Positions 1,804 to 10,737 of a stretch of 29,825 nucleotides of DNA are shown here, in pieces. The translations under genes were made by a program, and so were the position numbers. Positions within the stretch are counted from its first letter, which is position 1; each line of letters opens with the position of its first letter. The notes under the pieces were generated by a model. It searched no databases. It was given only the letters and a program-made list of their open reading frames with translations, and was not told the DNA's origin. The DNA is from a virus. The DNA lies in the IMG/VR virus record IMGVR_UViG_3300042898_004942, positions 1 to 29,825 of that record; one strand, written 5' to 3'.

Positions 1804-2527
1804 CGTCTAGTAAATTATCAATTCGTTGGTTTCTTAATTCCGCCTTATACTTTGAATAAGTAGTTGATGTTAAATTTTCTACAATATACGTTAATTTTGG
1901 ATTAATAACATTATGATATATCATAAATTCAACTTTAAGAACTGGAGAGAATGTAGCCTCTTGTCTAATATTTATTTTTATATCAGATATATCATAATAA
2001 ACATCATCATAAGATAATATAAAATCATCATCCCATTTCATATATGGATCAATATAAACATCAACACTACCAAAAAGATTTCCTTGTTTTGTAAATGCGT
2101 TCAATTTTTGAATTTTAATTGGTGCTAAATTAAAAGCAGCAGAATCCATAATATAATCAGAAGATATTCTACCATTTGTAATAACATTAGGTAAATTTAA
2201 CATTTTAATCTCACTAACAATTTTTCTCGACATGGTAGCCATTGTGCTATAATCAGTAGAATTTGTGATATTTAAAATATCAATAAAATTGACATAACCA
2301 TTATGTTTTATATCACCTATAACGACTTTTAAAATATATTGATTAATCTCACCAACAATCTTTTCTCTTAATAAGTTATAATACATCACATCGGATTGAA
2401 TCGAAGGGGGTAAGTTAACTGATAAACTATATTTTTGATAGTTTGAAATATCAGATTCTAATCGTTTAAAAGGTAAATCAATATCTATCTTTTTAAAAGC
2501 ATTATTAAAAAATTCTTCTAATTTCAT
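1775..2527 (-). CDS. Stand-alone paralogue of the capsid protein C-terminal region
   Basis: This 250-residue protein has a C-terminal half that aligns by eye with the end of the major capsid protein encoded at 6786-8549. VYIDPYMKWDDDFIL (residues 157-171) matches YVDPYMRYNDNRIL, EATFSPVLK matches EATFAPRML, and VITNGRISSDYIMDSAAFNLAP matches AVTNGGIAAALMDIAGYTINP. The stretch around residues 53-77 also parallels capsid LVNELSQTISRQIVEKLF. The N-terminal part of the capsid fold is missing. T4 carries a full-length capsid paralogue, vertex protein gp24, so a minor capsid or vertex role is possible, but this protein is far shorter. Its ATG overlaps the methyltransferase stop (TAATG), placing it in the same transcript. 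Confidence 0.75.
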   Translation of the reverse strand: MKLEEFFNNAFKKIDIDLPFKRLESDISNYQKYSLSVNLPPSIQSDVMYYNLLREKIVGEINQYILKVVIGDIKHNGYVNFIDILNITNSTDYSTMATMSRKIVSEIKMLNLPNVITNGRISSDYIMDSAAFNLAPIKIQKLNAFTKQGNLFGSVDVYIDPYMKWDDDFILSYDDVYYDISDIKINIRQEATFSPVLKVEFMIYHNVINPKLTYIVENLTSTTYSKYKAELRNQRIDNLLDDDKTLESNL

Positions 2528-3465
2528 TAAAATTTAACTCCATTTTCATCATAATTCATGATAAGCAACTCAACACCCTTGGATTGTTCCTTTTTAAGAT
2601 CCGCATTATTACCACCTTGAGCCGAACTTCTAAACACTTCTTTTTCAGTCCAACGATATTTATCTCTTGGTAATAATTCTTCTAATAAAGGAAAATAATA
2701 ATATGAAAGTGACCATCTACATTTTGTAGTTTTAATTAATTCTAACAATCTTCTATGTGATGCGGGACCAAATACTCCATCTTCATCTGCACCATACCAT
2801 GATAATCTCTTAGCATCATCATCACCATTTACATCTGGTCTGTGATATGGTGGGTCTAAATAAAGATAAGTATCTTCGGAGTCATATTTAAGAATTAACT
2901 CTTCAAAATCAATATTATAAAATTCAGTAATTGAATGTAATTTACTTGTATAAGTATTATTCCTCAATTTCTTGATAAGAACTTCTAATTTTAGACGATC
3001 TTTATCTTTTTTATATCCATTGAATCCCGCACCACGAGGATAGACAGAATTGTGGGCGGATGTAATCAAGAAAGCATAAATAGCAGCTTTCTCAAAATCT
3101 CCTATCTCAAAGTCCATATTATCTAAGAAATCATTTTTAGTATATTCCTTATAAATGGCTTTGTAAAAATCCCACTTTTTTAGTGGATCAGTCTCCAATG
3201 TATGTAGTAAAGTTCTCTTAAGATTTTCTAAGTGATTAACAAATAGTGATGGATTAGCACAACACTTATAAAGATTCACTTGATGTCTATTTTTATCATT
3301 ATAGATAACTTCCGCAAACTTTAGGTTTGGATCGTCCATGTATGTTCCCATAGCTCCGGAGAATGGTTCTATATAGGTTTTTATTCCTGTTTTAGGAATT
3401 CTTTTATTAATTAATTCCATGAAAACATTTGAGGACTTACCACCAAAATAGCTTATAACTGACAT
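2527..3465 (-). CDS. dam: DNA adenine N6-methyltransferase, Dam (D12) class
   Basis: This 312-residue protein has the hallmarks of class D12 DNA adenine methyltransferases. FGGK at residues 7-10 and EPFSGAMG at 33-40 form the S-adenosylmethionine-binding region, and DPPY at 204-207 is the catalytic motif. RSSAQGGNNADLKKEQ near the C-terminus corresponds to the RxxxNxxxxxR-type end of Dam-like enzymes. Length is slightly above the usual 270-300. It methylates adenine N6 in DNA; the recognition site cannot be read from sequence. In phages such enzymes commonly protect DNA from host restriction. It lies 9 bases from the NADAR gene, probably in the same transcript. Confidence 0.93.
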   Translation of the reverse strand: MSVISYFGGKSSNVFMELINKRIPKTGIKTYIEPFSGAMGTYMDDPNLKFAEVIYNDKNRHQVNLYKCCANPSLFVNHLENLKRTLLHTLETDPLKKWDFYKAIYKEYTKNDFLDNMDFEIGDFEKAAIYAFLITSAHNSVYPRGAGFNGYKKDKDRLKLEVLIKKLRNNTYTSKLHSITEFYNIDFEELILKYDSEDTYLYLDPPYHRPDVNGDDDAKRLSWYGADEDGVFGPASHRRLLELIKTTKCRWSLSYYYFPLLEELLPRDKYRWTEKEVFRSSAQGGNNADLKKEQSKGVELLIMNYDENGVKF

Positions 3466-3474
3466 AATTTATTT

Positions 3475-3966
3475 TTATTTTTTAAAAAGTATTTCTTCTA
3501 GTGAAGGCTTAACATTTTGTTGTCTCAATTCCATCCGAACTTTCATTAAAATTTTACCTAGATTATTTTGACCTTCTCCACGACAGATCCCCCAGTAGGT
3601 ATCATTCCATGTGTTGCCTTCAACCAATTCTTCATCACCAGTAGATAACAATAAATCCTTTAAATCAGTATGTTTAAATTTCTCACGAACACCCCATAAC
3701 ATAACATCTAATTTAACATCATCCCAATCTCTTCTTACTTTTACTATCTTACCAAACTGTTTAACTCTTGCAGGGTTAGGCATTTTAGCAATAAGTTCTC
3801 TACAATCAATATATGTGATGAATTTACCATCAATTTGTTGATCATTTTTAACCTTCATAGATACGTAGTAGTGTTCCAAAGTTGGATAAGTAATACCCTG
3901 ATGTTCTATTTTAGCGGGGTAGAAATTTGAGAGAAAATTATATCTCCCAGAAAATGATTCTATCAT
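3475..3966 (-). CDS. NADAR/YbiA-like N-glycosidase
   Basis: This 163-residue protein matches the NADAR (YbiA, DUF1768) fold over its full length. FSGRYNFLSNFYP at 5-17 and YPTLEHYY at 27-34 form the N-terminal substrate pocket; WGICRGEGQNNLGKILM at 125-141 is the C-terminal signature. Family members cleave N-glycosidic bonds in riboflavin precursors (YbiA), and some remove ADP-ribose from guanine in DNA, reversing DarT1-type toxins. In a phage, next to a DNA methyltransferase, a counter-defence role reversing DNA ADP-ribosylation is plausible but inferred. It lies just beyond the tmRNA terminator, so it needs read-through or its own promoter; no 11-mer promoter motif is seen in front of it. 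Confidence 0.9.
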   Translation of the reverse strand: MIESFSGRYNFLSNFYPAKIEHQGITYPTLEHYYVSMKVKNDQQIDGKFITYIDCRELIAKMPNPARVKQFGKIVKVRRDWDDVKLDVMLWGVREKFKHTDLKDLLLSTGDEELVEGNTWNDTYWGICRGEGQNNLGKILMKVRMELRQQNVKPSLEEILFKK

Positions 3967-3997
3967 AGAAATTATATCTAAATAATGGAATATGTTT

Positions 3998-4031
3998 AAA
4001 AAAGAAACACCAACCTAATTAGGTTGGTGTT
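3998..4031 (-). terminator. Intrinsic terminator of the tmRNA gene
   Basis: A perfect 26-base palindrome at 4006-4031 (CACCAACCTA and its complement at the core) is followed on the minus strand by TCTTTTTT at 4005-3998. On the plus strand no T-run follows, so the terminator serves minus-strand transcripts arriving from the tmRNA. Confidence 0.85.
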
Positions 4032-4053: not shown

Positions 4054-4063
4054 AGTGGTTCAG

Positions 4064-4427
4064 TGGAGATGCCCGGTATCGCTCCGGGGTCTTCCTCAGT
4101 TAAAAACGATCAATCGTTCACAAGCTTAGAAAGTTTTTCTTTAACTTACAAAATAGATAGTTGTTTCGACTCAAAAACACTCTAACAAGAAACTATCACA
4201 ATTTATACTGTTATGATTCAGTGTGAATTTTATGAAAGTATCAATTAAGCTACTTCAAGCTCATTCACAGTGAGCAAGTTGTTTTGTAGAGCAGCTACTA
4301 AATCTTCACTGGTTCCTACTTCTGTAACGTTTCCGTTTACGATTTTGATAATTTGTTTTAATCGGACTTTACCAAACCGATGCTTGCTTAATCACCCTTA
4401 CTCTGCGAATCAATTCAAATCACCCCC
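4064..4427 (-). ncRNA. ssrA: tmRNA (transfer-messenger RNA)
   Basis: The 364-nt RNA would rescue stalled ribosomes with host SmpB. The 5' end GGGGGUG (4427-4421) pairs over all seven positions with CAUCUCC (4071-4065), including the G3-U70 wobble that marks alanine acceptors; the discriminator is A (4064). A T-arm of correct geometry abuts it: CCCGG, 7-nt loop AGCGAUA, CCGGG. Near the 5' side is a pseudoknot (AUCGG/CCGAU at 4381-4377 and 4365-4361; UUUG/CAAA at 4376-4373 and 4355-4352), followed after 11 nt by an open frame ending EVA-UAA at 4245, as in E. coli tmRNA. GCAAGC near 4386 can pair with GCUUGU near the 3' domain, as expected for helix P2. CCA is not encoded. It has its own promoter and terminator. 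Confidence 0.86.
4245..4340 (-). other. tmRNA tag reading frame (31 codons, inferred)
   Basis: By position (11 nt after the pseudoknot) and context (AAUC GUA AAC, compare E. coli AGUC GCA AAC) the resume codon is GUA at 4340-4338. The frame then runs 31 codons to UAA and ends VNELEVA. Typical tags are about 10 residues and end in ALAA; tags near 30 residues are known in some bacteria. Upstream in frame there is a UGA and then no ATG, GTG or TTG before the resume point, so it is not an ordinary gene start. The exact resume codon is inferred. Confidence 0.6.
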
Positions 4428-4437
4428 AATTGTTTTA

Positions 4438-4469
4438 CAAAGATACATCTTATATATTAAACTACCAAA
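4438..4469 (-). promoter_or_regulatory. Bacteroidota-type promoter of the tmRNA
   Basis: On the minus strand TTTG at 4469-4466 and TATCTTTG at 4445-4438 are separated by 20 bases. This fits the Bacteroidota primary-sigma consensus (TTTG, about 19-21 bases, TAnnTTTG) exactly. The mature tmRNA 5' end lies 11 bases further on, leaving room for a short leader removed by RNase P. The box sits downstream of the stop of the 4486-4959 gene. Confidence 0.8.
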
Positions 4470-4485
4470 TAGTTTAATTTCTTTT

Positions 4486-4959
4486 TTAAAAAGGTAAATT
4501 ATCATCATGATCACCCTTGCCATGCATAAATTGAAATGATAAAATAGGATATCCTTGTTTACTCTCATATAACTCCATCTCAGAATCATATTGAGGTAAA
4601 ATATCTTTTTTCAATTTATAAACAACATCAAATGCCTTTAAAATATTCTTCATTTTCTCCTTTTTTTCTAAAAAAATATATACAGATAAATCAAGTTCAT
4701 CTCTATCAACTTGTGCCGTAATTCCATAGTTAGTAAACATAGATCGTATTAAATAACATAGATGATCTTCTTCATCAGAATTTTCTTCGTCATTAGAATA
4801 CACTTCACCACCCTCTTCCTCTTCTTCATCATCCTTTGATGGATCCCAGTCACTAAAATCTTCGTCATCACTATAATTTCTAGAATCGTCCCACTCGGTC
4901 TCTTCTTTAATTAATATTTTTTCAATTTTTAAATTTCGTATCATGTTATTTAAGTTCAA
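4486..4959 (-). CDS. Very acidic hypothetical protein
   Basis: This 157-residue protein has a basic start (residues 1-18), then a strongly acidic low-complexity stretch at about 20-65 (for example DDEEEEEGGE), then a folded-looking C-terminal domain (CYLIRSMFTNYGITAQVDRDELDLSVYIFLEKKEKMKN). No family is recognised. The acidic arm could mimic nucleic acid or bind a basic partner; that is speculation. Its ATG lies inside the end of the peptidase gene (14-base overlap), so the two are co-transcribed. The tmRNA promoter begins 16 bases past its stop. Confidence 0.7.
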   Translation of the reverse strand: MNLNNMIRNLKIEKILIKEETEWDDSRNYSDDEDFSDWDPSKDDEEEEEGGEVYSNDEENSDEEDHLCYLIRSMFTNYGITAQVDRDELDLSVYIFLEKKEKMKNILKAFDVVYKLKKDILPQYDSEMELYESKQGYPILSFQFMHGKGDHDDNLPF

Positions 4960-6286
4960 TTTTCATATATTGGTCATCAAAATAAATATCTGGATCCATC
5001 TTGTGCTTACTAAGTAATAAAGATAAATTTACCAAATCATCATGAACAACATCTATATTTGGTTCATCTAGTTCTACTTTAATATAAGCCATACCATATT
5101 CACTTGTGAGTCTTGCATCAACATTTAACACCATAGCTTTAAAATCGGATATAAATCCTTTATATTTTCTCAAGACTTCTTCATCAAATCCAACTTTCTT
5201 AACTGTTGGTAGATTCTCCCAATTAACATCTAAACAAGCTTTACCAAGTCGTTGTAAAAAAGAAATGTTTTGAGTCTCACTAATTGTATGTTCACTAAAA
5301 TAACCAACAGATATATTTGTACATTCAGCAATTTCATCAATAAATGATGCCGAATCTGTATAAATACCCGTTGGATCTAATGAAATTTTCAATCCCGATT
5401 TATTTAATTCCTTCGCCAATTCTGTCGCAAATTCATCAGAACAACATTCTCTTCCTAATTGTTGTGTAATAACTGAATAGTAATTTCTTCTATCAAAAGA
5501 TATACATCTTTTAACACCTTTCAAGTGTTCAACACTATCAAAAACAGATGCTAGTTTATTAGAACCAATTCCCCCTCTTTCCTCACCATCAAAGAAATAA
5601 TAAATTCCTGGAATGTTATGAGCCATCATATATAACATAATTGAAACACCTGCCTTATCATCAGCTCCTAAAATACTAGTACCATCAGTCACAAACATCT
5701 CATCCCCATCCTTTTCAGTACTATAAATAGTAACTTTAGATTGTTTTCTATCAGCTGTATCTAGGTGAGAAGTAAACATAGTCTCTGACTTACCAATTAT
5801 TTTATAATAATTATCGAATTCATCCTTAATTAAATCTTTTGGTAAAAATTTAAGAACTTCTGATTCGTGTCCATGTGGATAAGTCATTGTAGTCAATGAT
5901 AGAAATGTAGATCTAATATCTTTAGGACTATAAACAAATTCAGAAGGTTCTATCTTTTTATAAGATACCTTTGATGCTTCTTTGGTTGCTGGTTTTCCGT
6001 TTTTAATATTATTATAGCTCTGTGCAAATTTAAATATTTCAGAATTTGAGAATGTATCAGGTAAAATATATTTTATAAATTTACCCACTTTCATATTTGA
6101 TACTATACCAGAAATTTTAACATCAAAGTTCCAATCTAATTTTGATACATCTACTTCATCTATATTTAGATGATTATCTAAAAGATAATCTCCTTCAATT
6201 TTAATCAACATTTCAGCCACAGGGCCACTGATATCATCAATAATTTCATATAATTTATCAGTATATTTCAAAAGTGGTCCTTTCAT
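4946..6286 (-). CDS. Zinc-dependent peptidase, M20/M28-like, with unknown N-terminal domain
   Basis: In this 446-residue protein the catalytic part begins near residue 130. Candidate ligands for a two-zinc centre appear in family order: SHLDTAD (H174, D176), SILGADDKAG (D209/D210), FFDGEERGG (E235 and E236: catalytic base and ligand), SFDRR (D265) and YFSEHT (H333). LGADDKAG and GEERGGIGS are typical of tripeptidase-T and aminopeptidase-like enzymes. Residues 1-120 form a separate helical/mixed domain that I do not recognise, and about 100 residues follow the last ligand. It probably acts in the infected cell as an aminopeptidase or amidohydrolase; the substrate is unknown. It lies between the NFACT-R gene and the tmRNA. 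A candidate late promoter overlaps the upstream stop. Confidence 0.85.
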   Translation of the reverse strand: MKGPLLKYTDKLYEIIDDISGPVAEMLIKIEGDYLLDNHLNIDEVDVSKLDWNFDVKISGIVSNMKVGKFIKYILPDTFSNSEIFKFAQSYNNIKNGKPATKEASKVSYKKIEPSEFVYSPKDIRSTFLSLTTMTYPHGHESEVLKFLPKDLIKDEFDNYYKIIGKSETMFTSHLDTADRKQSKVTIYSTEKDGDEMFVTDGTSILGADDKAGVSIMLYMMAHNIPGIYYFFDGEERGGIGSNKLASVFDSVEHLKGVKRCISFDRRNYYSVITQQLGRECCSDEFATELAKELNKSGLKISLDPTGIYTDSASFIDEIAECTNISVGYFSEHTISETQNISFLQRLGKACLDVNWENLPTVKKVGFDEEVLRKYKGFISDFKAMVLNVDARLTSEYGMAYIKVELDEPNIDVVHDDLVNLSLLLSKHKMDPDIYFDDQYMKIELK

Positions 6287-6306
6287 TAATTAAAAATTCT
6301 TTTTTA

Positions 6307-6317
6307 TTATATATTAA
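6307..6317 (-). promoter_or_regulatory. Candidate late promoter motif TTAATATATAA
   Basis: Read on the minus strand, this is part of the 17-base string shared with 684-700 and 29625-29641. It overlaps the stop codon of the NFACT-R gene (6314-6316) and ends 20 bases before the peptidase ATG at 6286. Confidence 0.5.
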
Positions 6318-6703
6318 ATTTCAATTTGTATTTCTTGAGAATTTATATAATCCACTGAGACTTGTCCCGGCTTCATATCTGATGATTTTTTAACAAATTT
6401 TGATTTACAATATACTACATTTACTATATCCTTTGCTTTAGAGTTCTTAGCTGCTAAATGGGCAACCTTCTTAATAGTCTCTAGTGTTGGTAGTTTATCA
6501 TTAACTCTAATAAGAACATGACTTCCAGGAAACCCCTTAGCATGAAACCACAAATCATCATCATTAGCCATATTAATAGATAAGTGATCATTAGAAACGG
6601 CATCTTTACCAATTAATACTATAAAATCATCAACAATAACAGTCTTTATATTAGGAAATTTGTCTTTACTAGATTCAAAATGTTTAAAACTTAATATTTT
6701 CAT
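6314..6703 (-). CDS. Stand-alone NFACT-R domain protein (RqcH/NEMF-like RNA-binding domain)
   Basis: This 129-residue protein is essentially one NFACT-R (DUF814) domain. The signature DLWFHAKGFPGSHVLIR (residues 50-66), the LAAKNSKAK stretch (83-91) and the VVYCKSKFVKK...GQV strand pattern (96-115) are all present. In RqcH, Rqc2/NEMF and FbpA this domain sits at the C-terminus and contacts tRNA and the 50S/60S subunit during rescue of obstructed large subunits. The NFACT-N, helix-hairpin-helix and coiled-coil parts are missing here, so template-free alanine tailing as done by RqcH is not expected without a partner. The N-terminus MKILSFKHFESS resembles the MKxLKxF leaders of neighbouring genes. 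It lies upstream of the peptidase, on the tmRNA strand. Confidence 0.9.
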   Translation of the reverse strand: MKILSFKHFESSKDKFPNIKTVIVDDFIVLIGKDAVSNDHLSINMANDDDLWFHAKGFPGSHVLIRVNDKLPTLETIKKVAHLAAKNSKAKDIVNVVYCKSKFVKKSSDMKPGQVSVDYINSQEIQIEI

Positions 6704-6785: not shown

Positions 6786-8549
6786 TTAGTTCAAATATTG
6801 AGCATTGTCAGTAACAACAATAGTCATATATTGCTTCTGAGGGAAGAATCCAACATCAGCAAGTGCGTATCTTGAACGTAACAACATTCTTGGAGCGAAA
6901 GTCGCTTCAGAAATTACACTGATAGACTGAGCCATCAAGTAAGGTACGAAGATAAGACCTGGTTGATCTGGGTTATTCTTTCTTCCTAAAAGGATTCTGT
7001 TATCATTATATCTCATATAAGGATCAACATAGATAGAAATATCACCGATTTGACCAACTGGGTACAATTGACCTTGACCAGATAATTTAGATTTAACTGG
7101 GTTAATTGTGTAACCAGCAATATCCATAAGAGCTGCAGCGATACCTCCGTTTGTTACTGCGAATTGTGCAGGACCAACACGACCTTCTGTTGCGATGTAG
7201 TTAGAAGCGTGAACCATCTTAGTGATCAACTTACGTTGAACCGCGTGTGTAGTTTCACCACCTGCCATAGTATTAACATAAGCTGTGTTTAAATCGAAAA
7301 TAGTTGAAGCTGTTGATGTTGATAAAGCATTACCAAGTCCAAGTGGAGCTGTTGATCTGTTTAAAGTACCTAAAGTAAATAATTTTTCAACAATTTGTCT
7401 TGAAATAGTTTGAGAAAGTTCATTAACAAGGATTGACTCCATTTTCTGAACGATATCCATACCTGTATTAGCCTTAATATCTTCAATCTCTGTTCTTCTA
7501 AGTGCAGTAGAAACTTCAATTGTACCTACTTGTACTGTTTTAGAAGAAACTTTTGGTCCAATAATACCAGCGTAAGATTGGTCGTCTGCAAGACGATTCA
7601 TTGGATAATCTCCAGAAGAACTGTCTGCAGTCCAATTAGCTGAGAAACCTGGAAGGTGATCTTCAAGAGCCGATACTAACTCGATTCCACTAGATGTAGG
7701 AACTACTGAAAAAGTACCAATCAATCTAATTTGAGCAGTAATAGCTGCAGTCGGTGAAAAAGTATTCAATTTTGGATCAAATACATATGGTGCCATAGCA
7801 TAGCTAGTTGTGTGAGAACCACTAACTGCGTTAGCTTGACGGTAAGCTTTGAACATTGGGAAACCATCAACACGAGAGAAACCTAAGAATTCAGCCTGAC
7901 CTGCTCTACCTGTTGAAAGAGCGTCGATAGTTGCCTCAGATCCAGCAGCAGTATAGAAAGTCGCATCAGCAATTGATGGACCATTAGTTATTGTAGATGC
8001 AGTACCAAGCGAGCAAAATACTCTACCTCCTCTAATACCACCTTGTGTTAAAGTACCACCAGCTAAAGTAACTTTAGCTTCAAGAGCAGTCATTGCAGTT
8101 GTTAAACCTGTACCAGCAACAATTTTGAAAACTTGTGGTCTACCCATTGTTCCAGTCATATCTAAATCATCATACTGGAAATCAATATAAAGTAAATCGA
8201 TTTTTGGACCTGGAGTTGGCTTAACAGCAACAAGGTCAAGACCGATTGTTTGAGCTGCGATTTTCATAGCTACTGGAAGAAGGTTTTGACCTAAGTCTCC
8301 TGATCCAGCAACACCTGAATTACTTGAGAATGGTGTGCCAGTTAAAGCACCTGCTAATGTAGAAGGAACTGCTGAAACAACACCACCCATACCTGCTGTA
8401 GTTGCGTTAGCGTAAGCATTTTCATTGATTGAATGATATTCTGCCATTTCTGACATCCACTCCACCTTATCAACAGAAACACCCATGTTTTCCAAAACTG
8501 GACCCCACTTCTTAACCGCTTTTTGTTTGTCTATTCTAATGTGTGACAT
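6786..8549 (-). CDS. Major capsid protein, T4 gp23-like
   Basis: This 587-residue protein builds the phage head. QNLLPVAMKIAAQTIGLDLVAV (about 88-109) resembles the gp23 region following the processed N-terminus, and IYVDPYMRYND near residue 505 with SEATFAPRMLLRSRYAL resembles the conserved gp23 C-terminus. SINE/NAYANAT at 40-49 fits a gp21-type (I/L-x-E) site, so cleavage after E43 would give the mature protein. The gene follows the protease-scaffold gene by 37 bases in the T4 order 20-21-22-23 and ends at a strong terminator, as expected for abundant expression. Its leader is A-rich (AAAATAAAATT before ATG) with no Shine-Dalgarno, typical of Bacteroidota translation starts. G/C content is visibly higher than in its neighbours. 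Confidence 0.95.
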   Translation of the reverse strand: MSHIRIDKQKAVKKWGPVLENMGVSVDKVEWMSEMAEYHSINENAYANATTAGMGGVVSAVPSTLAGALTGTPFSSNSGVAGSGDLGQNLLPVAMKIAAQTIGLDLVAVKPTPGPKIDLLYIDFQYDDLDMTGTMGRPQVFKIVAGTGLTTAMTALEAKVTLAGGTLTQGGIRGGRVFCSLGTASTITNGPSIADATFYTAAGSEATIDALSTGRAGQAEFLGFSRVDGFPMFKAYRQANAVSGSHTTSYAMAPYVFDPKLNTFSPTAAITAQIRLIGTFSVVPTSSGIELVSALEDHLPGFSANWTADSSSGDYPMNRLADDQSYAGIIGPKVSSKTVQVGTIEVSTALRRTEIEDIKANTGMDIVQKMESILVNELSQTISRQIVEKLFTLGTLNRSTAPLGLGNALSTSTASTIFDLNTAYVNTMAGGETTHAVQRKLITKMVHASNYIATEGRVGPAQFAVTNGGIAAALMDIAGYTINPVKSKLSGQGQLYPVGQIGDISIYVDPYMRYNDNRILLGRKNNPDQPGLIFVPYLMAQSISVISEATFAPRMLLRSRYALADVGFFPQKQYMTIVVTDNAQYLN

Positions 8550-8586: not shown

Positions 8587-10737
8587 TTAAATGTTTCTGA
8601 ATCTCTCCATAATCGCCTTTAATTCAGATTCGTTAATTTTGTCTTCTTGAATTAAGCTTTCATGTGAAACTAATTTCTTAGTCACTGATTCATTCTTCTT
8701 GAGATTTCTAGTCATCCAGAAATGTTCAACTTGTGATTCTGTTGTCATTACTTCTGATGGATAAAGTCTAGCTTGTGATAAGATAGATTTTCTAGCACTC
8801 TCATTTAATTGGTTCCAGATTGGCTTGATGTTTTCAGGCATCAATCTGATTACTCTTTCTTCAAGAGATTCGTTCTTTGCTGACAAAGCCTCAGAAATTA
8901 GTCTTAACACATCTTGTTGTGTAAAGAAACTTTTTTCGTTTATGTAAAGTTTAACAGTATCTTGCTCTTCTTTTACTAAAGAGTAGAAACTATCTACCTG
9001 AGATTTGTTTAAGAACTTTAAAAAATGTAGATCGGATGTTTCTGAAGCTTTACGTTTTTTAGCTTCTTCGATCAATTTATCAATAGATTTAGATAATTCT
9101 GTGTCTGAGTTACCTTCATAGGCAAACTCTTCTGATTCTTCTGATTCTTCTGATTCATAGTTATCAGATTCTTCTGATTCTTCTGATTCGTAGTTTTCTG
9201 ATTCTTCTGATTCTTCTGATTCATAGTTTTCCAATGCTGGAGTTTCATTTTCATCAGATTCTGATTCATCGTTCCAAGATTTAGTTTCTTCTTCCTCTTC
9301 TTCTTCATATGAATCAAATCCAGCTGCTGATAGAGAAGGTAACATTTCATCTCCTTCTTCTTCATTGCTTTCAAATAATTTCTTACTACCATTTAATTTT
9401 TCAACAATTAAACCTTGATAAGAAATTGATTTATCAAGACTTTCAGCGATATATTCTGAATAAGCGATGTTGTCATCAAGATTTTCAGCGATATATTCTG
9501 AGTAAGCGATATTTCCTTCAACATTCTCAGCTAAATATTCTGAGTAAGCGATTGAATTATCAAGATGTTCTGCTAGATATTCTGAATAAGTAATGTTTTT
9601 ATCAAGATTTTCAGCGATGTATTCAGAGTAAGCGATGTTTTTATCAAGATTTTCAGCGATGTACTCAGAGTAAGCGATATTTTTATCAAGATTTTCAGCG
9701 ATATATTCTGAATAAGTAATGTTTTTATCAAGATTTTCAGCGATGTACTCAGAGTAAGCGATGTTTTTATCAAGATTTTCTGCAACGTACTCAGAGTAAG
9801 CGATGTTTTTATCAAGATTTTCCGCAACGTACTCAGAATAGTTAATTGCCTTCTCAAGATTTTCAGATAGATAATCAGTATGTTTGATTAGTTTATCAGC
9901 TGTAGTTCTTAAAGAGTTGTTTTCATTTACAACTACTTGAACTTTCTCTGCTAAATAATCTAAATACTTAACCATTTGAACATTTGTCTCATTAAGAGAT
10001 TCATAATACTCAAGCAATTGTTCAAATTTCTTTGGATTCAAATTGCCTTTCTTTACAGCTGTTCTAACTTCCTTCTTAGTGGAAGCCAACTCATTAATAA
10101 GATATTTTGAATATTCTGTGAGTTGTGTTTTTGTCACCAAGTCATTAGTGTTCATATTAAAAAGTGAATTTATTTTGGACTCATCGGACATCTCATATAT
10201 CCTAAAGTTAGTGTTATTAGAGTAGTTTAATGACTCATTTAAAATTTTAACACTCATTTTAGCTGAAGCAAAACCAGGGTCTGCAACGATATCATAAGTG
10301 AATAATTTTTTTAATGTAACCGTACCATCAGCTTCTGTTATACCAGCTGCTCTTGAAGATACAAAAACTGGACAACCATCATTTACTAATGCTTTGGCTT
10401 CTTTACCCCAATAGGTATTTAATAATTTTATTTCACCCTCTACTCTATTACTTTCTTTAATAAAATTTGCTTTAGTAATAATATGAGAAGCTCTTGACAA
10501 TGAAGTATCAAAAACATCTGGGTGGTCAAATTCACCATAGACAACACCCATGGTTTGAATTCTTTCATTTAATTCTTCCAAGCAAGGTAGAAATCTATCA
10601 GCGGTATAAATTCTCTCATTACGATTCTTAACATCGAATTCAGTGAAAACACCACCTAATAAATACTTCTGATCTCCTTTATTCTCTTTAACCATAAGAG
10701 AATTTACTGAATTTTCAACAATTAAAACTTGTTTCAT
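8587..10737 (-). CDS. Prohead protease (gp21-like) fused to a repeat-containing scaffold-like region
   Basis: This 716-residue protein starts with a T4 gp21-like protease domain (about 1-170). FTEFDVKNRNERIY matches gp21 EVVNRNKRLY; GEFDHPD holds the catalytic His72; FVSSRAAG holds Ser127/Ser128; FTYDIVADPGFASA matches the VDAVWGPSAPDA region. T4 gp21 is only about 210 residues. Here about 540 more follow: a charged linker, ten 14-residue YSEYxAENLDKNIx units (300-439), an acidic zone (about 462-560) with three 11-residue NYESEESEESE units, and a helical end. This resembles a gp22-type core scaffold joined to its protease. Likely self-cleavage sites include ILNE/SLN (167-168), QLNE/SAR and KINE/SEL near the C-terminus. 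It sits between portal and capsid genes. Confidence 0.9.
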   Translation of the reverse strand: MKQVLIVENSVNSLMVKENKGDQKYLLGGVFTEFDVKNRNERIYTADRFLPCLEELNERIQTMGVVYGEFDHPDVFDTSLSRASHIITKANFIKESNRVEGEIKLLNTYWGKEAKALVNDGCPVFVSSRAAGITEADGTVTLKKLFTYDIVADPGFASAKMSVKILNESLNYSNNTNFRIYEMSDESKINSLFNMNTNDLVTKTQLTEYSKYLINELASTKKEVRTAVKKGNLNPKKFEQLLEYYESLNETNVQMVKYLDYLAEKVQVVVNENNSLRTTADKLIKHTDYLSENLEKAINYSEYVAENLDKNIAYSEYVAENLDKNIAYSEYIAENLDKNITYSEYIAENLDKNIAYSEYIAENLDKNIAYSEYIAENLDKNITYSEYLAEHLDNSIAYSEYLAENVEGNIAYSEYIAENLDDNIAYSEYIAESLDKSISYQGLIVEKLNGSKKLFESNEEEGDEMLPSLSAAGFDSYEEEEEEETKSWNDESESDENETPALENYESEESEESENYESEESEESDNYESEESEESEEFAYEGNSDTELSKSIDKLIEEAKKRKASETSDLHFLKFLNKSQVDSFYSLVKEEQDTVKLYINEKSFFTQQDVLRLISEALSAKNESLEERVIRLMPENIKPIWNQLNESARKSILSQARLYPSEVMTTESQVEHFWMTRNLKKNESVTKKLVSHESLIQEDKINESELKAIMERFRNI
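9130..9228 (-). repeat. Three 33-bp repeats encoding NYESEESEESE
   Basis: Three near-identical units lie at residues 504-536 of the protease-scaffold protein, within its acidic zone. The DNA copies differ by few bases, which suggests recent duplication. Confidence 0.85.
9421..9840 (-). repeat. Ten 42-bp repeats encoding YSEYIAENLDKNIA
   Basis: Ten consecutive 14-residue units occupy residues 300-439 of the protease-scaffold protein. A degenerate unit (HTDYLSENLEKAIN) precedes them and another (YQGLIVEKLNGS) follows. Fourteen residues equals two heptads, with Tyr, Ile/Val/Leu and Leu recurring at fixed places, so a long amphipathic helix or coiled coil is expected. Middle copies are nearly identical in DNA and outer ones are more diverged. 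Confidence 0.93.

Follow-up and report, generated by a model that had tools for sequence, protein, structure and literature searches.

Bacterial transfer-messenger RNA (tmRNA; gene ssrA; Rfam family RF00023) works with SmpB in trans-translation and usually carries a short tag ending in LAA. Mycoplasma and plastid tmRNAs have longer tags of ~25-35 residues, and mycoplasmas use Lon for the tagged products. The NFACT-R domain is known from RqcH/NEMF, whose architecture combines NFACT-N, HhH, coiled-coil and NFACT-R, as well as from CCDC25 and from small proteins of Calditrichota and Gemmatimonadota. Phage-borne ssrA has been described in Bacillus phage G, mycobacteriophages and huge phages, and in the huge phages, where Al-Shayeb et al. 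called the tmRNAs with ARAGORN, it is accompanied by SmpB (PMC7162821). In phage T4, the internal head proteins IPI-III bear a capsid-targeting sequence (MKTYQEFIAE|A, the bar marking cleavage) in which targeting depends on residues 4 and 7 and processing on residues 8 and 10 (PMC9026906). We have analyzed a 29,825-nucleotide viral fragment, the whole of IMG/VR record IMGVR_UViG_3300042898_004942 (29.8 kb, hereafter the window), in which the head genes are followed by genes for an NFACT-R protein, a PepT-like peptidase, an acidic protein and a tmRNA, and then by NADAR and D12 methyltransferase genes. The phages of this group are giant viruses of Bacteroidota. An earlier note on this DNA had proposed one module for the management of stalled ribosomes; on the present evidence we lean slightly towards two systems side by side, a phage trans-translation gene next to a cluster of head-delivered proteins.

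The tmRNA is genuine and beyond chance, because it has syntenic homologues, covarying pairs and a conserved G3:U70 acceptor stem. As in bacterial tmRNA, there is a tRNA-like domain (TLD) with G3:U70, a pseudoknot PK1, a resume region that can be aligned with that of E. coli, a tag frame and the terminal layout (Table 1); P2 is also present. A permissive search of 551 bases returned a full-length RF00023 match at 4061-4427 (minus strand) with 30.2 bits (E 1.8e-10), the gathering score of 47 bits being a detection threshold and not a biological trait. Double changes were observed in 16 of the 35 TLD/P2 pairs, with 96.8% of cells paired over 37 distinct sequences. The G3:U70 stem was retained in 60/60 relatives, and the acceptor pair 5:68 varied among them (A-U, G-U, G-C, C-G). 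In relatives fetched through NFACT-R only, a homologue of the RNA likewise sits between the acidic gene and NADAR (in L009 the contig stops before this point). Upstream of the RNA, the promoter motif TAnnTTTG was found in 37 of 55 distinct regions, with 3.4 expected. The earlier note was thus right about the tmRNA; its end coordinates had to be corrected, to a 5' end at 4427 and a discriminator base at 4064.

Two properties distinguish these RNAs from bacterial tmRNA, apart from the tag. The T-loop is AGCGAUA in the window, GGCAGUA in most relatives and UUCGUUA in three, so that the window deviates from the canonical UUCRA and most relatives from UUCGA. We have treated this as a derived trait that does not exclude the molecule from the tmRNAs, because the rest of it is intact. 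In addition, neither ARAGORN, the tmRNA caller of the published huge-phage set, nor Rfam scans at the gathering threshold reported a tmRNA in the window and its relatives, probably because of the diverged T-loop (AGCGAUA/GGCAGUA); the Rfam cut-off was passed by the tmRNAs of the complete relative W03 and of Lak phages. T-loop and D-loop types co-occurred, GGCAGUA with UAGAAU and either AGCGAUA or UUCGUUA with UGAAU, which is suggestive of an altered contact between the two loops. A group I intron of 229 nt (RF00028, 96 bits) splits the T-loop of the tmRNA in a 735-kb phage (L223 in LR756501.1, ~718.2-718.8 kb, minus strand), and ARAGORN found the exon-joined form, not the genomic one. A degenerate PK1 pattern tried as a tmRNA finder on viral contigs gave mainly chance matches.

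The tag reading frame encodes 31 residues, as opposed to the usual short tag. Its resume codon, GUA, was placed by alignment with the E. coli resume region. A DNA-pattern scan yielded 89 viral tag loci and, together with loci found otherwise, 42 distinct tag peptides, nearly all of 29-32 residues. The positions EDLV and LQNN were almost invariant, an invariance partly imposed by the scan pattern and seen equally in loci fetched without it, whereas the other two frames of the region contained stops in 91/91 and 88/91 loci. A 636-kb relative has a long tag of 26 residues ending in AVAA (LNDNVNSFEQSILNELFAPVEMAVAA) and the 735-kb relative one of 33 residues ending in LVLA (GDYKMNAEDMMSIPTSLTGKVATESFVEDLVLA, from ARAGORN on the joined exons); Lak phage tags, which we read off the Rfam alignment by eye, are short (LNDDEI(D/E)FRMAA). 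The length of the tag is at the long end of the known range and not unprecedented, since mRNA-like regions of known tmRNAs reach 126 nt (PMC1168896). In length these tags resemble those of mycoplasmas and plastids, to which they are unrelated in sequence. The tag was not copied from the end of a phage protein: in the nine phage records searched, the peptide occurred only in the tmRNAs.

A phage-run trans-translation pathway is credible because the real tmRNA is joined by SmpB and Clp genes in complete relatives, in line with the earlier note's view that the phage carries a part for ribosome rescue. Full-length SmpB was found in all four 634-735-kb genomes (W01-W04) and also in Lak phages, a ClpA/C-type unfoldase in four of the four genomes, and 2-3 ClpP genes in three of them. 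In the 642-kb phage, ClpC keeps the Walker motifs and the VGF loop, and ClpP the MAASMGA motif. The combination of a long tag with Clp genes distinguishes these phages from earlier phage tmRNAs. Lon, which mycoplasmas use, was dropped as a candidate tag reader, as none was found in the four genomes. From the RNA, its reading frame and this gene content, we infer a diverged but working phage ssrA, transcribed from its own host-type promoter, whose product would be charged with alanine via G3:U70 and act with phage SmpB on ribosomes stalled during infection. The 31-residue tag would then be added to stalled products in place of the short host tag, and its core EDLV-x-x-LQNN would serve as a partner recognition site, plausibly for phage ClpC/ClpP, leading to degradation under phage control. 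Such a tag-and-degrade pathway run by the phage is plausible from the genes present.

The second system concerns the leader of the NFACT-R protein, MKILSFKHFE, which resembles the T4 capsid-targeting sequence. Relatives of the protein begin with MIKKFNLFE|GKK, MKLKKYSQFNE|SKK and similar, and relatives of the acidic protein with MKIKKYNIFLE|KDN. Such leaders were present in 36/41 NFACT-R and 47/59 acidic relatives, and in only 7/77 relatives of the peptidase. With the exact T4 spacing, the leader was found in 19 of 808 open reading frames (ORFs) of the 642-kb genome; 400-kb samples of the 636- and 735-kb genomes gave 14 of 475 and 19 of 415 ORFs, respectively. Shuffled N-termini gave 0.2-0.4 ORFs. 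The same search of T4 retrieved exactly ipII and ipIII, and bacterial contigs gave 0/520. A looser pattern matched 92 ORFs of the 642-kb genome vs. ~11 expected. The likeness to T4 IPI-III thus extends over the [YF]xxF[IVL]xE leader and a gp23/gp21/gp20-type head; the differences are that T4 has a handful of such proteins and these phages dozens per genome, that many leaders have E right after F, and that cleavage is predicted. We also observed that the dozens of leader-bearing proteins of each giant phage are unrelated (L250-L282 in LR756502.1, L283-L302 in LR756501.1, L303-L322 in LR756504.1). Many small proteins with the leader (MKHLKTYKIFES...; L250-L253) cluster within the initial 80 kb of the 642-kb phage and have an LxDDGFEV-like stretch in common; they are possibly a paralogous family.

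The protein behind this leader is a stand-alone NFACT-R of 129 residues, as the earlier note had stated. Profile searches matched RqcH with E 4e-24 and CCDC25 with ~1e-11, and the SND-LT and W-H-K-G-PGSH motifs of RqcH/NEMF, CCDC25 and the small bacterial proteins are retained. In contrast to RqcH/NEMF, the phage protein consists of NFACT-R alone, with no NFACT-N, HhH or coiled-coil. No NFACT-N was found in the eight phage records searched, which excludes alanine tailing of the RqcH type by a phage RqcH in the complete phage genomes. Unlike the known forms, the phage proteins carry a capsid-targeting-like leader and formed one clade of their own (100/100), distinct from both RqcH and the bacterial stand-alone forms; a host origin was considered, and the tree did not place the source. 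An AlphaFold model computed without alignment was poor (predicted local distance difference test score, pLDDT, of 47). In L032 (6167-6970), L097 (2760-3527) and L016 (14671-15384), NFACT-R shares its frame with a domain upstream of it (MKYLLIENSGDD... or MKKYILVADDPN...), which may reflect a fusion or starts that overlap. NFACT-R matches in "phage" records of Listeria and Enterococcus were set aside; the one that we read was an RqcH of full length, apparently from host DNA.

Given the leader, the domain and the place in the head cluster, the NFACT-R and acidic proteins are probably packaged in the head and injected. As internal head proteins, they would be brought to the prohead by the leader, cut after its Glu by the S77 protease and injected with the DNA; at an early stage of infection, NFACT-R would then attach to tRNA or to the 50S subunit. 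The leader explains the place of the two genes beside the head genes better than a shared role with the tmRNA would. Another targeting signal would look like this leader, and packaging is inferred from it. A direct link between the two systems is not needed. A more specific version, to which we give tentative and lesser credence, is a private trans-translation with phage SmpB and a 31-residue tag read by phage ClpC/ClpP, combined with a large set of capsid-targeted, injected effectors, NFACT-R included, that seize host translation early.

Several observations weigh against this two-system picture. The leader also occurs on CCA/poly(A) polymerase, PPK2, radical SAM, GNAT and methyltransferase proteins, and its presence on enzymes such as the first two may indicate a signal other than for the head. 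The window, a 30-kb fragment, has no SmpB or Clp genes of its own. NFACT-R lies beside the tmRNA in ~4/5 of testable loci, leaving room for a functional link. In the tag core, the ratio of nonsynonymous to synonymous polymorphism (pN/pS) of 0.57 is a modest signal from a region partly fixed by the search pattern. Finally, the tag C-termini are variable (EVA, ATV, MTV) and unlike the classical Clp degron, so that the tag may be protective or localising, and not degradative. A tag of this kind, with no degron and shielding truncated products from host ClpXP, would suit C-termini that differ from LAA beside a strictly kept core; we find it doubtful, considering the ClpP and ClpC genes of complete relatives and the AVAA and LVLA ends of the 636- and 735-kb tags.

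The module of the earlier note, in which NFACT-R, peptidase, acidic protein and tmRNA cooperate in handling ribosomes that stall in the course of host shut-off or under a tRNA-cleaving defence, draws on two factors that both belong to ribosome-rescue biology, NFACT-R with its RqcH match, and on their linkage. For 51 tmRNA loci, the sequence on the upstream side spans 3.5 kb or more; it includes the peptidase gene in 45 of them, the capsid gene in 42, and NFACT-R and the acidic gene in 40 each. NADAR was downstream in 56 of 59. The three genes kept the same order and strand in most relatives, including the 642- and 635-kb Mahaphages. The adjacency that the earlier note had proposed to look for was therefore found in most relatives, but it equals that of the surrounding head genes, the whole region being syntenic, and says little. 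In some relatives the linkage is broken, a partial refutation on the earlier note's own terms: in five contigs (L026, L039, L055, L073, L108), NFACT-R is found on the opposite strand at a distance of 4-7 kb, accompanied by its neighbours as far as the contig shows them. Nine contigs of 16-201 kb have the tmRNA without NFACT-R, and NFACT-R is likewise absent from the complete 636- and 735-kb genomes, which do encode tmRNA and SmpB. Together with the missing NFACT-N, the separate tmRNA promoter and the capsid-type leaders, these losses and inversions make a single unit unlikely; ribosome rescue as such is upheld by tmRNA, SmpB and Clp, so that the locus probably has the rescue function and not the single module. 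Least probable of all is a decoy tmRNA that occupies ribosomes or host SmpB and so prevents trans-translation by the host, the tag being incidental. This would fit the diverged T-loop and the known case of a mycobacteriophage with little beyond the tRNA-like domain, a kind of molecule that inhibits tmRNA (PMC4131195), but not the conserved long frame with the other frames closed, G3:U70 in 60/60 or a phage supply of SmpB.

New here are the long-tag tmRNA missed by the tools, its SmpB/Clp company, and a leader resembling a capsid-targeting sequence, found on NFACT-R as well as on dozens of further proteins. Standard annotation can miss the tmRNAs of the largest phage genomes, and the long conserved tag gives a handle for finding its partner. 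Should the leader prove to direct proteins to the capsid, it would list, for each giant Bacteroidota phage, dozens of proteins that are likely injected, and would help to assign functions to proteins without one.

Table 1. Coordinates of the features of the window.
Feature	Position	Strand	Details and basis
tmRNA gene (ssrA)	4061..4427	-	G1 = 4427, discriminator A = 4064; CCA not encoded; RF00023 full-length match
Acceptor stem, 5' strand GGGGGUG	4421..4427	-	Pairs with 4065-4071 (CAUCUCC), 7/7 pairs, G3:U70
T arm CCCGG-AGCGAUA-CCGGG, non-canonical T-loop	4072..4088	-	Sequence reading
Pseudoknot PK1	4344..4381	-	S1 AUCGG (4377-4381)/CCGAU (4361-4365); sequence complementarity
PK1 stem S2	4369-4376/4344-4351	-	UUUGGUAA/UUAUCAAA; sequence complementarity
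Tag reading frame	4245..4340	-	Resume codon GUA, 31 codons + UAA: VNGNVTEVGTSEDLVAALQNNLLTVNELEVA
Bacteroidota-type promoter of tmRNA	4438..4469	-	TTTG (4466-4469), 20 bases, TATCTTTG (4438-4445)
Intrinsic terminator 3' of tmRNA	3997..4030	-	ACACCAACCTAATTAGGTTGGTGT + T run; sequence reading
NFACT-R protein, stand-alone, 129 aa	6314..6703	-	PF05670, E 6e-16, 59 bits (cut-off 30)
Leader MKILSFKHFE of NFACT-R	6674..6703	-	Predicted cleavage after E10; relatives, enrichment, T4 control
PepT-like M20/M28 metallopeptidase	4946..6286	-	phrog_4191, E 4e-66
Acidic protein	4486..4959	-	Disordered D/E-rich N part + conserved alpha-beta-beta-alpha-beta-beta domain; alignments, model
Major capsid protein, gp23 type	6786..8549	-	PF07068, E 2e-28
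Prohead protease, gp21/S77 type, long C-terminal part	8587..10737	-	phrog_207, E 7e-29

The T4-type head region is on the minus strand and includes, by family matches, a gp20 portal besides the capsid protein and protease. Family and RNA matches agreed with the earlier note in placing tmRNA, acidic gene, peptidase and NFACT-R on this one strand within at most 2.7 kb. On the 3' side of the tmRNA are the NADAR protein (3475-3966, minus strand) and the D12 adenine methyltransferase (2527-3465, minus strand), as in most relatives.

For the acidic protein, no family was matched, and its domain model (pLDDT ~88) had no solved-fold match at E<=0.001. The window copy has a diverged N-terminus, the leader being carried by its relatives. 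The M20/M28-like peptidase announced between tmRNA and NFACT-R was recovered through phrog_4191 and an alignment to peptidase T 3gb0, in which the motifs SHLD, LGADDKAG and EE and the C-terminal H, the co-catalytic metal residues among them, are aligned. By sequence it is an ordinary phage PepT-like enzyme. In some relatives, a second PepT-like gene separates the acidic gene from the tmRNA (L003:10447-11190, L010:10496-11233 and others), and the giant genomes contain 4-6 matches each to the window peptidase.

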